From the NCBI GenBank assembly GCA_027080775.1, contig JALWPV010000042.1, forward strand, positions 1 to 62,065: 62,065 nt of DNA, read 5' to 3'. The notes beneath the pieces were generated by a model. The model saw only the letters and a list, made by a program, of their open reading frames with translations, was not told the DNA's origin and ran no database searches. Within the stretch, counting starts at the first letter, position 1. Each line of letters opens with the position of its first letter. Both the position numbers and the translations under genes were made by a program. Shown here one piece after another: positions 35,822 through 43,527 of the stretch. Origin of the DNA: Acidilobaceae archaeon (lineage in GTDB: Archaea > Thermoproteota > Thermoprotei_A > Sulfolobales > Acidilobaceae).

Positions 35822-37123
35822 GTGAGCAGGCTCAGAGCGCTCATAGCGAAGGAGGTGAGGGAGCTCCTCAGGGAGAGGCTCGTCCTTGTGGGCATGATAA
35901 TAATGCCAGCGCTCATAATGGCCTTCATGGGGGGCCTCCAGGGGGTCGCAGTTAAGAAGACCGTCCAGCAGGCCGCCAGGCCGCTCCGAGTGCTCATAGT
36001 CTTCGACTCCGAGCCCACTGCGAATGATACTAGGCTAGCCTCCATCCTGGCGGGGGAGATGGGTGCAACCCTCGAGGCCCGCCCCTACAGGGGCGACCCG
36101 GCCGAGCTGCTCTCCAGCGGGGACTACTCCGCGGTCGTGGTGCTCCACAGGGGCTTCGCCGAGAACTTCACTGAGGGCCTCCCCGTGGAGGCGGGGGTCT
36201 ACGTGGCCATACCCTCCCCCACCCCCATGGCTCAGGCCTTCGTTGAGAAGGTCACGGCACAGCTCACGGGGGCTCTGAGGGCTCTCATAGCCTCGAGGGT
36301 CCACAAGGTCTTCCCCAAGGCGAGCGCGTCCTTCCTAGTCGAGCCCCTCAAGGCCGAGACGACGATAGTGGTGTGGGGCAGGGAGGTCCCCGCCCACAAG
36401 TATACCGGGTACATCCTCTCCCTCTACGGGGTCCCCCTGGCGCTCCTCATACTCCTGACATCCGCCACCCAGGTGGGAGCGATAAGCATGGGCCTCGAGA
36501 GGGAGGCCAAGACCCTCGAGATGCTCCTAGCCTCGCCCGTGACTGCGAGGGACGTGGTGCTATCGAAGATCCTCGGCGTCCTAGCCGTGACCCTCATAGG
36601 GGGCGCGAGCTTCGCCCTCGGCTTCCTGGTTTACAGCGAGTCCCTCAGGAGCGCCATGGGGGCCGCTGTGCCGGGCCTCACGGGTGGCCTCACGCCTGGG
36701 GCCACGGCGGTTGCCCTCGCAACCCTGGTGATGGACCTCTACATAGCGGCGGTGCTGGGCCTCATACTAGGCCTGGGGGCCCAGGACGTCAAGGGGGCCC
36801 AGATGGTGGCCAACTACTTCTCCTTCCTCCTCCTCATACCATACCTAGCGGTATTCATAGGCTTCGTGCCCTCGCCCACGGGGCCTCTGGGGGCAGCGCT
36901 GCTGGCGGACCCCCTCTACCCCCCGCTGATAGCCCTCTTGGGGGCCCAGTTCGGCAGGCCCGGCGTTGCCCTGGCGGCCCTCGCAGTCCAGGCCGGCCAC
37001 CTAGCGCTCTGGAGCCTCGTGGCCCTCAGGCTCCTCGAGCCAGAGAGGCTGGTCGCCGGCATACCGCTCCTCTCGAGGCTCGCGCGGAGGCGCCTCCCCG
37101 GGGCTGGGGGTGGAAGCGCCTAA
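35822..37123 (+). CDS. ABC-2 type transporter permease
   Basis: 433-residue membrane protein with the NatB/ABC-2 layout: one N-terminal helix (LVGMIIMPALIMAFMGG), a large extracytoplasmic domain (about residues 45-190), then five or six helices, for example YGVPLALLILLTSATQVGA, VLAVTLIGGASFALGFLV and NYFSFLLLIPYLAVFIGFV. EREAKTLEMLLASPVTARDVVLSK is the coupling segment seen in this family. Export substrate unknown. GTG start. Confidence 0.9.
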   Translation: MSRLRALIAKEVRELLRERLVLVGMIIMPALIMAFMGGLQGVAVKKTVQQAARPLRVLIVFDSEPTANDTRLASILAGEMGATLEARPYRGDPAELLSSGDYSAVVVLHRGFAENFTEGLPVEAGVYVAIPSPTPMAQAFVEKVTAQLTGALRALIASRVHKVFPKASASFLVEPLKAETTIVVWGREVPAHKYTGYILSLYGVPLALLILLTSATQVGAISMGLEREAKTLEMLLASPVTARDVVLSKILGVLAVTLIGGASFALGFLVYSESLRSAMGAAVPGLTGGLTPGATAVALATLVMDLYIAAVLGLILGLGAQDVKGAQMVANYFSFLLLIPYLAVFIGFVPSPTGPLGAALLADPLYPPLIALLGAQFGRPGVALAALAVQAGHLALWSLVALRLLEPERLVAGIPLLSRLARRRLPGAGGGSA

Positions 37124-37892
37124 ACCCCCGCCCGGGGGCATCCCCCGCTGGGTGGGCCAGGTGGCTGGCGGGCACATCACGCCCCAGCACATAAGGGCGG
37201 GGCCGGGCGACGTCGCTGAGAGGGTCGTGCTCGTGGGGGACCCGGCGAGGGCTAGGATGATAGCGGGAATGCTCGCCGACGCGAGGCTGGTCAACGAGAA
37301 TAGGGGCCTCCTAGTCTACACCGGCTCCTACAGGGGCGCGAGGGTAAGCGTTGCGGTGCACGGCATAGGCGCCCCGAGCGCCGCCATAGTGATCGAGGAG
37401 CTGATAGCCCTCGGGGCCCGCTACCTGGTGAGGCTGGGCACCTGCGGGGGCCTCGTGGAGGACCTAGACATAGGCGACTACGTCGCCGCGAGCGGCGCCG
37501 CCTACAACCCTGGGGGGGCGATGGGCCAGTACTTCGGGGGCATATGCCCCCCGGCGAGCCCGGATCCCGAGCTGCTGCTAGCGGTCTACAGGGAGGCCTC
37601 TAGGAGGGGCAGGGCCATATTGGCCCCCGTGTATAGTAGCGATGCCTTCTACGCGGAGGACCCCGGCATGGCTAGGAGGCTCTCATCCATGGGGCTCAAG
37701 GCTGTCGAGATGGAGGTAGCCATACTCTACGCCCTAGCCAACATGAGGGGGGCCCGCGCGGCCGCCCTCCTGGTGGTCTCTGATAACCTCGTCGTGCCGG
37801 GGAAGGAGAGGCTGAGGAGCCACGAGGAGCTGGAGGCCCACGTGCGCGGCGCCGCCGAGGCCGTCCTGGAGGCGCTGGCATCCATGGGGTGA
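37110..37892 (+). CDS. purine nucleoside / methylthioadenosine phosphorylase
   Basis: 260-residue PNP/UDP-phosphorylase family protein (hexameric type). Phosphate-site VVLVGDPARARMIA, then NENRGLLVYTGSYRGARVSV, VHGIGAPSAAIVIEEL, and the purine and ribose site SSDAFYAED ... LKAVEMEVAILYAL with VVSDNLV. It closely follows the pattern of the Sulfolobus 5'-methylthioadenosine phosphorylase, so MTA recycling from polyamine synthesis is likely, although inosine and guanosine may also be substrates. The GTG start overlaps the permease end by 14 bases; the start could be a little later. Confidence 0.88.
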   Translation: MEAPKPPPGGIPRWVGQVAGGHITPQHIRAGPGDVAERVVLVGDPARARMIAGMLADARLVNENRGLLVYTGSYRGARVSVAVHGIGAPSAAIVIEELIALGARYLVRLGTCGGLVEDLDIGDYVAASGAAYNPGGAMGQYFGGICPPASPDPELLLAVYREASRRGRAILAPVYSSDAFYAEDPGMARRLSSMGLKAVEMEVAILYALANMRGARAAALLVVSDNLVVPGKERLRSHEELEAHVRGAAEAVLEALASMG

Positions 37893-37895
37893 GGG

Positions 37896-38579
37896 GTGCA
37901 GTTGAGCGACACCAGCAGGGACTACAGGATACTCATGGCCCTCCACGCCGTGGACCTCCTCGAGAGGAGGGTGAGGCAGTGGGGCATGCCCTGGCCCGTC
38001 AAGAGGCAGGCCGCCCTCCAGGAGGTAGCCGAGGCCAGGAAGGCCCTCCTGAGGGCCCGCTACAGCTTCCTCCCAGCTAGGATGCTAGCCGAGAGCCAGG
38101 AGGTGGCAAGGGTAGCCGAGGCGGCCACTAAGCTCATAGCAATGCTGGTGCCCCAGCAGAGGCCCAGGCTCACGGGAAGCCAGGCGCTCGCCTTCGCCGA
38201 GATAAGGTGGGCCCTCGCCATACTCAAGGGCCTCAAGTCCAGGCTCCTCCTGGGCGATGAGAACAGGCCCGAGTACGCAGTCGACGTAGTCGGCGTGGAG
38301 GTCGTCAGGGTCGAGCCCATAAGGGGCACGAGGCTCTACGCCACCAGGGCCTCAGCAGGAAGCGTGGCGTTCACGATAGTGACGAACATAGAGGGGATAA
38401 GGCAGGGGGAGGTGAGGGCAGCCGCAGTCCTGCCGCCCCAGGAGTTCTCCGGGGTCATAAGCGAGGCGATGTACGCCAGCGAGCCCATAGACAGGGGGTA
38501 CCTAGGCAAGAGGGTGCCCCCGAGGCTCCTCTCGGGGGAGGTGGCGGCGATAGTCAGGAGGATAACCGAGGGCCGCTAG
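37896..38579 (+). CDS. unknown protein with possible tRNA-binding-like C-terminal domain
   Basis: 227 residues. The N-terminal 120 residues are helical and basic; the C-terminal 90 (RLYATRASAGSVAFTIVTNI ... VRAAAVLPPQEFSGVISEAM) have the strand pattern of an EMAP-II/CsaA-like OB fold, but this is only a resemblance. The TTG start lies 3 bases after the phosphorylase stop, so it is in that operon. No catalytic motif is visible. I do not assign a function. Confidence 0.55.
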   Translation: MQLSDTSRDYRILMALHAVDLLERRVRQWGMPWPVKRQAALQEVAEARKALLRARYSFLPARMLAESQEVARVAEAATKLIAMLVPQQRPRLTGSQALAFAEIRWALAILKGLKSRLLLGDENRPEYAVDVVGVEVVRVEPIRGTRLYATRASAGSVAFTIVTNIEGIRQGEVRAAAVLPPQEFSGVISEAMYASEPIDRGYLGKRVPPRLLSGEVAAIVRRITEGR

Positions 38580-38606: not shown

Positions 38607-38966
38607 ATGCCCCGCGCTGGCTCCAATAGGGAGAGGGGGCCGCTGGAGAGGCTCGACAGGAAGACGAGCGTGGAGACCCTCTGGCTCTACGTCATAGCAG
38701 CGCTCGCCGTGGAGGGGCCGACCTACGCATACAATGTTAGGAAGATAATAGAGAGGAGGTTCGGCTTCAAGCCCTCAACTATGACGCTCTACACGGTGAT
38801 CTACAGGCTCGAGAGGAGCGGCTTCCTGAGGAGGAGGGACAACCTCTACGAGGTCACACCCGAGGGCCTCGCCCTCCTCGAGAGGGGCCTCGAGATGCTC
38901 GAGGGCAGGCTCTCCCTCCTAAGGGGCGCGCTCCAGGAGGCCCGGCGGCGGGGGGCCGAGGGTTAA
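38607..38966 (+). CDS. PadR-family transcriptional regulator
   Basis: 119 residues with a winged helix: TYAYNVRKIIERRFGFKPSTMT, then LYTVIYRLERSGFLRRRDNLYEVTPEGLALLE, the PadR signature. Typical PadR proteins repress stress or transport genes on binding small ligands. It stands directly before the encapsulin gene, whose TATA box overlaps this gene's stop codon, so encapsulin is a natural candidate target. ATG start. Confidence 0.85.
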   Translation: MPRAGSNRERGPLERLDRKTSVETLWLYVIAALAVEGPTYAYNVRKIIERRFGFKPSTMTLYTVIYRLERSGFLRRRDNLYEVTPEGLALLERGLEMLEGRLSLLRGALQEARRRGAEG

Positions 38967-38994: not shown

Positions 38995-40044
38995 GTGCTG
39001 GGCTTGCTATCAAAGCACCCCCTCGAGGTTGCGGGGGCCGGGAAGCTAGGCCCCCAGGGGCTCGCCGAGGCCCTCAGGCTCGCCATTATAGCGGAGCTGG
39101 ACGCTGTGAACCTCTACCTCCAGCTCGCCAGGGCTGTTGAGGACGAGGAGGCCAGGAAGGTCTTCGAGGACATTGCGAGGGAGGAGAAGACCCACGTGGG
39201 CGAGTTCCTGGCGCTACTCAAGAAGATTGACCCCGAGCAGGTCAAGGAGCTCGAGGCGGGGGAGGCCGAGGTAAGGGAGCTGACCGGCGGCGACCCCCCG
39301 GCCACCCCGGAGACCAAGGCCGACCCCCCTGCTGGCCTCGAGGAGCTGGTGAAGTTGAGGGTTCTCTCGGTGGTGAGGGCCTCGAGGAGGCTCCGCGGGA
39401 TCCTCGAGGCCGTTGAGGCCCCTGGGGTGGAGGGGGTCCTCGTTCAGGCCGACCCCACGGGTAGGGCGGTGCTGAGCGGGCTCTACGAGATCAGCGAGTC
39501 ATTCTCCCTGCCAGCCAGGATCCTGGCGTACTGGTCAGCGACGGGCATCGAGCCCCCGATGCCCCAGCTCTACAGGGCCGCCCGAAGGCTCGCTGCGAGG
39601 GAGGACGAGCTGATAGTTGAGGCCCTCAAGTCCGCGGGCGAGGCGCATAGGCTGGAGATGAGCGACTGGTCCCAGCCAGGCGCCGCCGTGGAGGATGTAG
39701 CCAGGGCCCTGGCGGAGCTGGAGTCCAACGCCGTCCCCAGGCCCTACGTGCTCCTAGTCAGCCCCGCGAGGTACGCGGGGCTCGTGAGGTATAGCGAGAG
39801 GAGCGGTGTCATGGACCTCCACAGGGTCAAGGCCCTAGTCCACAAGGTTGTAATAGAGCCGCACGTGCCCGATAATGCAGCGATCCTCTTCTCAGCGGAC
39901 CCCAGCGTGGTCGACCTCCTCGTAGGCAGGGACGCTACGGTCAGCGTGATAGGCGAGAACGCTGAGGGCAACGTGGAGTTCAGGGTATACGAGGCCATAC
40001 TACCCAGGGTCAAGGACCCCAACGGCATCGCCATACTATCCTAG
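38995..40044 (+). CDS. encapsulin shell protein fused to an N-terminal ferritin-like domain
   Basis: 349 residues. About 20-97 form a two-helix encapsulated-ferritin-like domain (LRLAIIAELDAVNLYLQLAR, AREEKTHVGEFLALLKKIDP) with likely iron ligands E34, E64 and H67, spaced as in EncFtn. A Pro-rich linker (GGDPPATPETKADPPAG) leads to an HK97-fold shell domain (about 115-349) ending RVYEAILPRVKDPNGIAILS. The arrangement and many residues match the Pyrococcus furiosus fusion, whose shells mineralise iron. Cargo and capsid are thus one polypeptide, with the ferritin facing inward. TTG 39004 gives MLSKHP, like the Pyrococcus start; GTG 38995 fits leaderless transcription. Confidence 0.93.
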   Translation: MLGLLSKHPLEVAGAGKLGPQGLAEALRLAIIAELDAVNLYLQLARAVEDEEARKVFEDIAREEKTHVGEFLALLKKIDPEQVKELEAGEAEVRELTGGDPPATPETKADPPAGLEELVKLRVLSVVRASRRLRGILEAVEAPGVEGVLVQADPTGRAVLSGLYEISESFSLPARILAYWSATGIEPPMPQLYRAARRLAAREDELIVEALKSAGEAHRLEMSDWSQPGAAVEDVARALAELESNAVPRPYVLLVSPARYAGLVRYSERSGVMDLHRVKALVHKVVIEPHVPDNAAILFSADPSVVDLLVGRDATVSVIGENAEGNVEFRVYEAILPRVKDPNGIAILS

Positions 40045-40078: not shown

Positions 40079-41041
40079 ATGGAGGCCTGCATAGGCGCCG
40101 CCGACGTGGGGGCCTCGAAGATAAGGGTGGCCCTCTTCAGGGGCCCCCGCCTCATAGCTAGGAGGGCCTCGCCATTCCCAGCCGCAGGCGGCCCCATGGC
40201 GCCCTCCAGGCTGATACTAGAGATGCTCGAGTCCCTCCTCGCCGGCACGCCCGGCTGCGGGGGCATAGAGGCCCTCGGCGTCGCCTCGATAGGCCCCCTA
40301 GACCCCCGGAGGGGCGTTGTGGAGGGGACCCCGAACGCCCCCATCAAGAGCTTCCCCCTACGCCGCCCCCTGGAGGAGGCGCTTGGCGTCCCGGTGGTGG
40401 TGGCGAACGACTGCAACGCTGGCGCCTGGGCTGAGTACACGCTTGGGAGGGGCTCCGGCCTCGATAGCCTGGCGTACATCGCCGTCGGCACGGGCATAGG
40501 CGGTGGCGTGGTCATAGGGGGCAGGCTCCTCGTCGGCCCCCGCGGCCTCGGCGCCGAGGTCGGCCACCTCGTCCTGGAGGCCTCCTCCCGGGCTAGGTGC
40601 GGCTGCGGGGGCAGGGGCCACTGGGAAGCCCTGGCCTCGGGCTCCGCGATACCCAGGACCGCCAGGATCCTGGCCCGCGGGTGGAGGGGCCCCGAGACGC
40701 AGGCCCTCCGCGAGGCCCTCAGGGCCCGCCTGGGGGCGGAGGCCCTCTACGCCTACGCCCGTGGGGGCGACGCCTTCGCCCTCCACGTCGTGGACTACCT
40801 CGCCGGGATCCACGCGGCGGGCATAGCGAGCGTCACGGTCGCATACGACGCTCAGGCGGTCTTCCTGGGCGGGGGCGCCCTCCTGGGGGGCTGGGACCTC
40901 CTCGCCCCCAGGATCCGGGCCGCCCTCGGGGAGTACCTGGGCTACAGCGTGGACGTGAGGGTTGAGAGGTGTATGTTCGGGGAGGACCAGCAGCTCTACG
41001 GCGCGGCATCCCTCGTGCTTAGGAGGCCCGAGACCCTCTAG
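40079..41041 (+). CDS. ROK-family sugar kinase
   Basis: 320-residue ROK kinase, probably glucokinase/hexokinase. Phosphate-1 region GAADVGASKIRVALF, catalytic Asp in VVANDCNAGAWAE, phosphate-2 AVGTGIGGGVVIGGRLL, and EVGHLVLE followed by CGCGGRGHWE. The last is the ROK zinc motif CxCGxxGCxE with the third cysteine replaced by His, still a possible zinc ligand. ATG start 35 bases after encapsulin. Archaeal ROK enzymes commonly phosphorylate glucose and other hexoses with ATP; specificity is not readable. Confidence 0.88.
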   Translation: MEACIGAADVGASKIRVALFRGPRLIARRASPFPAAGGPMAPSRLILEMLESLLAGTPGCGGIEALGVASIGPLDPRRGVVEGTPNAPIKSFPLRRPLEEALGVPVVVANDCNAGAWAEYTLGRGSGLDSLAYIAVGTGIGGGVVIGGRLLVGPRGLGAEVGHLVLEASSRARCGCGGRGHWEALASGSAIPRTARILARGWRGPETQALREALRARLGAEALYAYARGGDAFALHVVDYLAGIHAAGIASVTVAYDAQAVFLGGGALLGGWDLLAPRIRAALGEYLGYSVDVRVERCMFGEDQQLYGAASLVLRRPETL

Positions 41042-41526: not shown

Positions 41527-43527
41527 TTATTGGGGTGATATTTGCGGTTGCGGGGAGCGCCTGGCGAGGGCGCACACCACTATTGCTGCCAGAGCCGCCC
41601 CAAGCGCTGCGGCCGAGAGGGCCTCTGCCCCCCTGCCGCCCAGGGGCCCGGGGGAGGCCGTGGGGCTCGCGGGGCTTCTCGTCGTCGTGCCTGTGGCCTG
41701 GCGCTGGGCGCCGCCCGCCTGGCTAGTGGCTGTGTGGCTCCCTGTGTTGCCCGCGTTGCTGGCTGTGGTTATGGGCGCCGGGGGCTTCCCCTGGGACTCG
41801 CTGAGGATCCTCTCGAGCCAGGAGTAGAGGACGGCCTTGCTGGCGGCGATGAGCCTCACCTCGGGGCTCCCGGCTGACTCGGCAAGGCCTAGGAGGGCCC
41901 TCGAGACCGCCCCGAGGTCTCCGGAGGGCTGGAGGGCCCCGGCTATGAGTGTGAGCTGCCTGGCCGTCCTCGAGGGCTCGAGCGTGAATGTCTCGTGTAT
42001 CACCCGGGTGGAGGCCGCTATAGACTCTATGGAGAGGCCTATCACCGCCGCCGGATCCCTCGAGGCTAGGGCCTCCCCCGCAAGGGCCTCAGCTAGGCCT
42101 GCCCTCGAGACAGGGGCCCCGGCCTCGCCCAGGAGGGTCTCGAGGTACGCCACCGTGGTCCTGGCCTGGGCCTCGAGGAGCGATGCCAGCCTGGCGAGCC
42201 TCTCCCTCGAGACCGGGGGTCCCGGGGGCGCTATCCTGGTGAGGTTAGCCCAGAAGGAGGCCCAGTAGGCCGTGGCCCCCGCCTGGGCCAGCGTCTCGAC
42301 CCCGCGGGTGTCGAGGCCGGAGAGGAGGGTGTAGGGTATGTAGTAGCGGCCCCCACTATGGTCTAGGAGCCTGAGCGCGGCCTTGTAGTAGTAGGCGGCG
42401 ACGCCCAGCATCCCGTAGGCCCTCGCCGCCAGCAGGTACCCGAGGGCGCCCCCGGCGCTGGAGCTGGCGTTGGCGGCCTCGTCCCAGGCCCTTATGATGC
42501 TCGAGTTAACCGCCTCCACCACGCCGGTCACGTCGAGCCTGTGCCTGAGGCCCCAGGTGAGGTAGCTGGCCTCGAGTGCGTCGGCGTAGGCCTGCACGGC
42601 CGTTATTGCAGCGTCGTAGGGCCTCCCCTCGCCCAGGAGCCTGAGGGCCTCGCGGGCCTCGCTGGTGGCGTTCGCTGCCAGGGCCGCTATGAAGCCGTAT
42701 CCCCGGGCGGCGCCCTCGAGGGTCTCGTTGACCCTGCGGGCCGTGAGCCTCACGTAGACCCCGAGGGCGTCGGTGAACCAGCCGGGCAGCTCGGTCGTGG
42801 CCGGCCTCACCTCGAGGCTCCTGTTCGTGGCGAGCTCATACTCCTCGAGGAGGGTGGCGGCCGTGGCGACGCGTACCCCCAGCTTCTCACCGTAGGCAGT
42901 GAGGTTCACCGTGACGGGCTCCCTGACGACCCACACGAAGGGGCCCAGGGTCTTGTAGACCGTCTTGTAGTAGGTGTAGACCTCCTGGCCGGCCGGCACT
43001 ATGAAGAGCCTCGCGCCCCCGCGGGCCGCCGCCTCTAGCTTCTCCTTCAACCCGCCCACGGGCCCTATGCTGGCGTCGGGCTGTATCATGCCCGTCACGT
43101 CGACCCTGGGGTTGCAGGTTGCGTTGGTTAGGAGGTCCAGCGTCGCGAGAGCCATGGCCGCCCCGGCGCTTGGGCCCCCGACTATTATGCTCGGCACCTC
43201 TATGGCGTAGTAGAAGTCGTACCTCATCATGTCAACACCCGCGAGGAGGCTCGCGGCGAACGCCGCCAGCCTCGCGCTCCCCTGCGTGTCAATCTCCGCG
43301 GCGGGGCTAGTGGAGATGTACACCCTACCCGAGCCGGGGTAGCGGATGGTAACAGTCAGGTTACCCAGCACCCCACCCCCAGCGCTCGAGACAGCCACGA
43401 TGTGGATAGTGCAGCTCCTAACCCAGCCCCCACCCCCAGCGGGGGAGGCCGCAGCCACGGCTCCCGGGGGCAGGGAGGCGGCCAGGAGGGCAACCACAAG
43501 CGCCAGGGCGGCGGGGCGGAGCCTCAC
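41527..43527 (-). CDS. secreted, membrane-anchored Lon-type (S16) serine protease
   Basis: 666 residues. Signal peptide (LALVVALLAASLPPGAVA), then an S16 domain over about residues 38-185 with the Ser-Lys dyad: S120 in IVGGPSAGAAMA and K161 in IGPVGGLKEKLEAA, 41 residues apart, close to the Lon spacing. No AAA+ ATPase module is present. A long helical domain with several N-glycosylation sites follows, then a Thr/Ser/Pro-rich stalk (about 595-635) and a C-terminal transmembrane helix (ALSAAALGAALAAIVVCAL). The protease should face the outside of the cell and work without ATP. Substrate unknown. Confidence 0.85.
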   Translation of the reverse strand: MRLRPAALALVVALLAASLPPGAVAAASPAGGGGWVRSCTIHIVAVSSAGGGVLGNLTVTIRYPGSGRVYISTSPAAEIDTQGSARLAAFAASLLAGVDMMRYDFYYAIEVPSIIVGGPSAGAAMALATLDLLTNATCNPRVDVTGMIQPDASIGPVGGLKEKLEAAARGGARLFIVPAGQEVYTYYKTVYKTLGPFVWVVREPVTVNLTAYGEKLGVRVATAATLLEEYELATNRSLEVRPATTELPGWFTDALGVYVRLTARRVNETLEGAARGYGFIAALAANATSEAREALRLLGEGRPYDAAITAVQAYADALEASYLTWGLRHRLDVTGVVEAVNSSIIRAWDEAANASSSAGGALGYLLAARAYGMLGVAAYYYKAALRLLDHSGGRYYIPYTLLSGLDTRGVETLAQAGATAYWASFWANLTRIAPPGPPVSRERLARLASLLEAQARTTVAYLETLLGEAGAPVSRAGLAEALAGEALASRDPAAVIGLSIESIAASTRVIHETFTLEPSRTARQLTLIAGALQPSGDLGAVSRALLGLAESAGSPEVRLIAASKAVLYSWLERILSESQGKPPAPITTASNAGNTGSHTATSQAGGAQRQATGTTTRSPASPTASPGPLGGRGAEALSAAALGAALAAIVVCALARRSPQPQISPQ

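Follow-up and report, generated by a model that had tools for sequence, protein, structure and literature searches.

The window analysed here, a stretch of 62,065 nucleotides from an Acidilobaceae archaeon, raises the question of whether a ferritin-like domain (FLP) and an encapsulin shell are encoded together in one polypeptide and, more broadly, of what the shell adds to such a domain. The preliminary description of this DNA had proposed a one-chain fusion of this kind, and Pfam, NCBIfam, phmmer, AlphaFold2 and Foldseek all bear it out (Table 1). We conclude with high confidence that the gene encodes a Flp-fusion encapsulin of family 1. In the current study, we also followed the two parts of the fusion through the order to which the window belongs, and the resulting pattern of fused and solo domains matters more than the window protein itself.

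Table 1. Coordinates of the features discussed (window positions unless a locus is named; residues counted from GTG 38995).
Feature	Position	Strand	Evidence or remark
Phosphorylase	37110-37892		In co-directional run with encapsulin
Helical-domain protein	37896-38579		In co-directional run with encapsulin
PadR-like winged-helix regulator	38607..38966	+	Directly upstream of encapsulin; PF03551 E 9.4e-7
Flp-fusion encapsulin gene	39004..40044	+	Initial reading 38995-40044 from GTG; likelier start TTG 39004
EncFtn-type two-helix ferritin-like domain (FLP), residues 20-97	39052..39285	+	PF02915, EncB_fam, 5n5e, model, invariant columns
Flexible linker GDPPATPETKADPPAGL, residues 98-114	39286..39336	+	pLDDT <50 over residues 97-112; varying length among relatives
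HK97-fold family 1 encapsulin shell domain, residues 115-349	39337..40041	+	PF04454, encap_f1, 2e0z
ROK-family sugar kinase	40079..41041	+	34 nt downstream of encapsulin; PF00480 E 4.1e-47
Rubrerythrin-family genes	L147 10440-10931; L145 9830-10324; L187 1459-1944 (G000:C66)		About a dozen further loci

Translation of 38995-40044 (+) gives one open frame of 349 codons, which begins with the codons GTG CTG GGC TTG CTA TCA AAG. The true start is probably the TTG at 39004, three codons downstream of the GTG at 38995, because most relatives start at the alignment column of codon 4, the family model alignment begins at 39004, and a GGTG lies six bases upstream of this TTG; for the aligned homologues the comparison is partly circular, since the distance to the EExxH motif guided the choice of their starts. 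The codon 4 position is also where solo relatives, e.g., L033-L037, begin when read from the first start codon. The frame of the preliminary description thus stands, but its start codon probably does not, and the protein would therefore have 346 rather than 349 amino acids, with the ligands discussed below as E34, E64 and H67 renumbered E31, E61 and H64.

Both domains were recognized by profile searches, as the preliminary description had anticipated. In Pfam, Linocin_M18 (PF04454, residues 157-335, E 1.3e-24) and Rubrerythrin (PF02915, residues 25-84, E 1.4e-9) scored above the cut-off, while EncFtn-like (PF22277, residues 30-87, E 4.7e-5) remained below it with 23.5 bits vs the cut-off of 27, a profile with which the solo relative L145 scores 27.0 bits. 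The NCBIfam models EncB_fam (E 6.7e-22) and encap_f1 (E 1.3e-26, 93.5 bits vs 100) were likewise just under their curated cut-offs. Such NCBIfam and PF22277 scores are what a diverged archaeal member would be expected to give. The best PDB match was the Pyrococcus furiosus virus-like particle 2e0z, found by phmmer over query residues 21-348 on chain residues 18-344 (E 1.2e-49), which agrees with the particle layout suggested earlier; the second, in the PDB sequence search, was the ferritin-like (EncFtn) domain of P. furiosus, 5n5e (E 6.5e-26). The FLP of the window also gave a weak direct match to the s-FLP of Nitrosomonas europaea (NE0167, PDB 3k6c, E 0.0015). Judged from these sequence comparisons, the matches to the FLP and to the shell are not attributable to chance. 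Named homologues are 33-56% identical and come from records of Thermoproteota, Thermococcus and Archaeoglobaceae, the nearest (L052, 56% identity) being that of an Acidilobaceae archaeon (G146:C205) in the window's own family group. The crenarchaeote origin suspected from the sequence is thus in line with a Thermoproteota archaeon.

An AlphaFold2 model built with 31 homologues reached a mean pLDDT of 85.9. Its FLP is predicted to consist of helices 20-47 and 51-78, which form a hairpin, and a third helix 80-97, followed by a disordered, Pro-containing linker (pLDDT <50 over residues 97-112) and then by the shell. The pTM of the model is only 0.65, probably because the arrangement of the domains is not fixed. 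With the shell part, Foldseek returned 2e0z as the top match (E 6.7e-20, TM 0.84 by target), and the 50 matches listed are without exception encapsulins, engineered ones included. An HK97 fold for residues 115-349, as first proposed, therefore finds its match in PF04454, in 2e0z and in Foldseek.

The alignment of 31 homologues showed that E34, D36, Y41, E63, E64 and H67 are invariant, and E34, Y41, E64 and H67 can be assigned as di-iron ligands by homology. The string D59xxxE63E64xT66H67 matches DxxxEExTH, the signature variant that PMC11202242 gives for FLPs in archaeal fusions. In the EncFtn of Rhodospirillum rubrum, the residues corresponding to E34, E64 and H67 (i.e., E32, E62 and H65) are needed for full ferroxidase activity, with alanine at E62 abolishing the activity and alanine at E32 or H65 lowering it (PMC5012862). 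The preliminary description had required these residues to lie together. In the model, E34 and E64 are each 15 residues from the turn at 49 and would thus be level in the hairpin, as read off the secondary structure and not from distances, which places E34 in register with E64/H67.

By analogy with the known particles, a working of the window protein may be proposed in which the C-terminal domain self-assembles to form an icosahedral shell of the HK97 type (that of P. furiosus being T=3), with the N-terminal FLP suspended inside it on the short flexible linker. Two FLPs would pair antiparallel to create one di-iron ferroxidase site, with E34, E64 and H67 from each chain and Y41 adjacent, and the pairs would stack in rings like those of the excised P. 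furiosus domain. Fe2+ would enter via the shell pores, be oxidized at the FLP sites and be stored in the cavity, and this storage may limit iron-driven oxidative damage. Storage may, however, not be the only role of the FLP, because shell-less relatives keep the domain.

The HK97 fold also occurs in the capsids of tailed viruses, and the shell domain could in principle be a capsid protein from an archaeal virus integrated here, with an incidental FLP match, the more so as some contigs classified as viral contain related FLP pieces. These pieces are short and without a shell, however, whereas the window protein specifically matches family 1 encapsulins and the P. furiosus particle over its whole chain. 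Besides, no viral module was recognized among the surrounding genes examined, which are cellular, and the fusion is retained across the order. We regard a viral capsid as highly improbable, and the full-length fusion homology in effect refutes it. A decayed or inactive fusion, a reading suggested by the decay of the shell part in other genomes (G164 and G115, see below), is just as hard to sustain, given the 349 open codons, the retention of every ligand position and nearly all conserved shell positions, and the fold predicted with high confidence.

The surroundings of the gene were compared with those of relatives. The encapsulin lies in a co-directional run with short gaps, in the order phosphorylase, helical-domain protein, PadR-like regulator, encapsulin and ROK kinase, and the PadR-like gene is possibly co-transcribed with it. 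No neighbour in this run was shared with any of the seven related loci compared (L052 and six others). As the PadR and ROK genes are not shared with these relatives, we give this context no weight for function. Further along, 41527-43527 (-) encodes what looks like a surface-anchored Lon-like protease, a protein of 666 aa in which a Lon-type protease domain (PF05362 E 1.3e-10) is accompanied by a signal-like stretch at the N-terminus and a hydrophobic segment at the C-terminus. The window's genome has one PF04454 gene, and three other, incomplete genomes of the same genus gave no match.

In a survey of 117 genomes of the order, searched with the window protein and with PF04454, the shell was present in 55 and an FLP without a shell gene in 22. 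The solo FLPs are mostly about 93-123 aa long and about 47-68% identical to the window's domain. No genome was in both lists, while about 10 would be expected under independence across the 117 genomes, counted ignoring kinship. A search of the wider class found one genome (G205) with a fusion and a second, broken FLP. Beyond the order, solo FLPs were found in a few bacteria as well as in many archaeal groups, with no shell detectable in the flanks fetched.

Three genomes bear on how the solo domains arose. G041 carries a 105-aa FLP (L145 9516-9833) exactly where its congeners G009 (L146 9146-10222) and G030 (L147 9374-10450) have the 358-aa fusion, with about a dozen neighbouring genes in common, and the end of this FLP overlaps the next gene, a rubrerythrin. 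In G164, decayed shell sequence (L167 2255-2464; best E 3.7e-14, 41% identity) comes after an intact 103-aa FLP (L167 1618-1929). In G115, a 113-aa FLP (L036 1858-2199) is followed, past stop codons, by a recognizable linker and first shell helix, the stretch matching L076 with 73% identity across 137 residues that include the FLP. We count these as three separate losses of the shell in place; the G041 locus and the remnants in G164 and G115 therefore support repeated loss of the shell at its own locus, with the ferroxidase domain retained. A tree of the FLPs (95 columns) agrees in direction with shell loss and needs at least 14 changes between the fused and solo states, but it is poorly resolved. 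Because its starred branches force only one change, we base repeated loss on synteny and relics. Directly behind the decayed shell relic of G164, we also observed a CRISPR-like array (L167 2934-4345) of 22 repeats (GAAACAATAAATAAAAATTGAAAG) with a spacing of about 66 nt.

Many fused and some solo FLP genes are directly followed by a gene for a rubrerythrin-family protein of 155-165 aa (PF02915 E 6.3e-6) with a nearly constant C-terminal SPWHGxPGG (SPWHGTPGG). We considered whether this tail is a shell-targeting peptide, but shell-less genomes retain it too, which weakens this reading; the tail is thus not simply a targeting signal. A rival reading concerns the job of the window protein, not its identity. 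The partner would fit a main role in peroxide or oxygen defence, with rubrerythrin-like chemistry and a rubrerythrin partner, in which iron storage is secondary and the shell dispensable. Such a role would also suit the repeated loss of the shell with retention of the FLP, and a rubrerythrin-family relative with the tail VWHGTPGG is encoded in the window's genome on contig C66. On the other hand, this gene is not adjacent to the encapsulin, the FLP carries the EncFtn ferroxidase signature, and the EncFtn of R. rubrum acts as a ferroxidase that requires a shell for iron storage (PMC5012862). We hold a mainly defensive role to be possible but rather unlikely.

Overall, and returning to the Flp-fusion encapsulin as a ferroxidase, we think it somewhat more probable than otherwise that in hyperthermophilic archaea a fusion encapsulin can shed its shell in place, repeatedly, and leave the EncFtn domain as a working shell-free protein, sometimes beside the SPWHGTPGG rubrerythrin. 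If true, the EncFtn domain has a shell-independent job, which contrasts with the rule derived from R. rubrum of shell housing for iron storage. Closely related species that differ in having or lacking the shell half at a shared locus are natural pairs for studying what an EncFtn ferroxidase gains from its shell. No description of in-place shell loss was found in the literature searched, the coverage of which was partial.

With regard to known systems, the window protein has both features of the Flp-fusion class, i.e., a Linocin_M18-family HK97 shell and an N-terminal FLP in one chain, together with the two-helix hairpin and the E, Y, E and H ligands that are features of the EncFtn domain. Flp-fusion encapsulins are all archaeal, mostly from Crenarchaeota, and often encoded near rubrerythrins (PMC8346489), an occurrence that fits nearest relatives from Acidilobaceae and other Thermoproteota. 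No operon with a rubrerythrin or other ferritin-like protein was found beside the window gene, this being a frequent but not a defining feature of the class. The shells are T=3 in P. furiosus and Sulfolobus solfataricus (PMC8346489), and their 180 tethered domains would yield 18 decamers, which are unlikely to suit the shell symmetry (PMC11202242). The preliminary description had pointed to linker length and shell symmetry as limits on FLP pairing, the same problem as already stated there. Both the fusion architecture and this puzzle are thus published; the window protein is an added member, and a further sequence, of a class known from Pyrococcus and from numerous hot-spring archaea, in which the arrangement of the 180 domains in a T=3 shell is yet to be solved.

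Compared with the P. furiosus particle (2e0z/5n5e), the window protein is alike in domain order, full-length homology, ferroxidase signature and shell fold, but it is clearly diverged in sequence and belongs to the Thermoproteota. It shares class and phylum with the crenarchaeal Flp-fusion encapsulins, including that of S. solfataricus (PMC8346489), although its gene is flanked by the PadR-like regulator and the ROK kinase instead of an adjoining rubrerythrin or ferritin. The two-helix domain with E, Y, E and H ligands is common to R. rubrum EncFtn and Myxococcus xanthus EncB/EncC, which are separate cargo proteins with a C-terminal targeting peptide, while the FLP of the window is part of the shell chain. 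Finally, s-FLPs such as that of N. europaea resemble the shell-less archaeal FLPs of our survey, being short and without a recognized targeting peptide, in contrast to the window FLP, which is fused to its shell.
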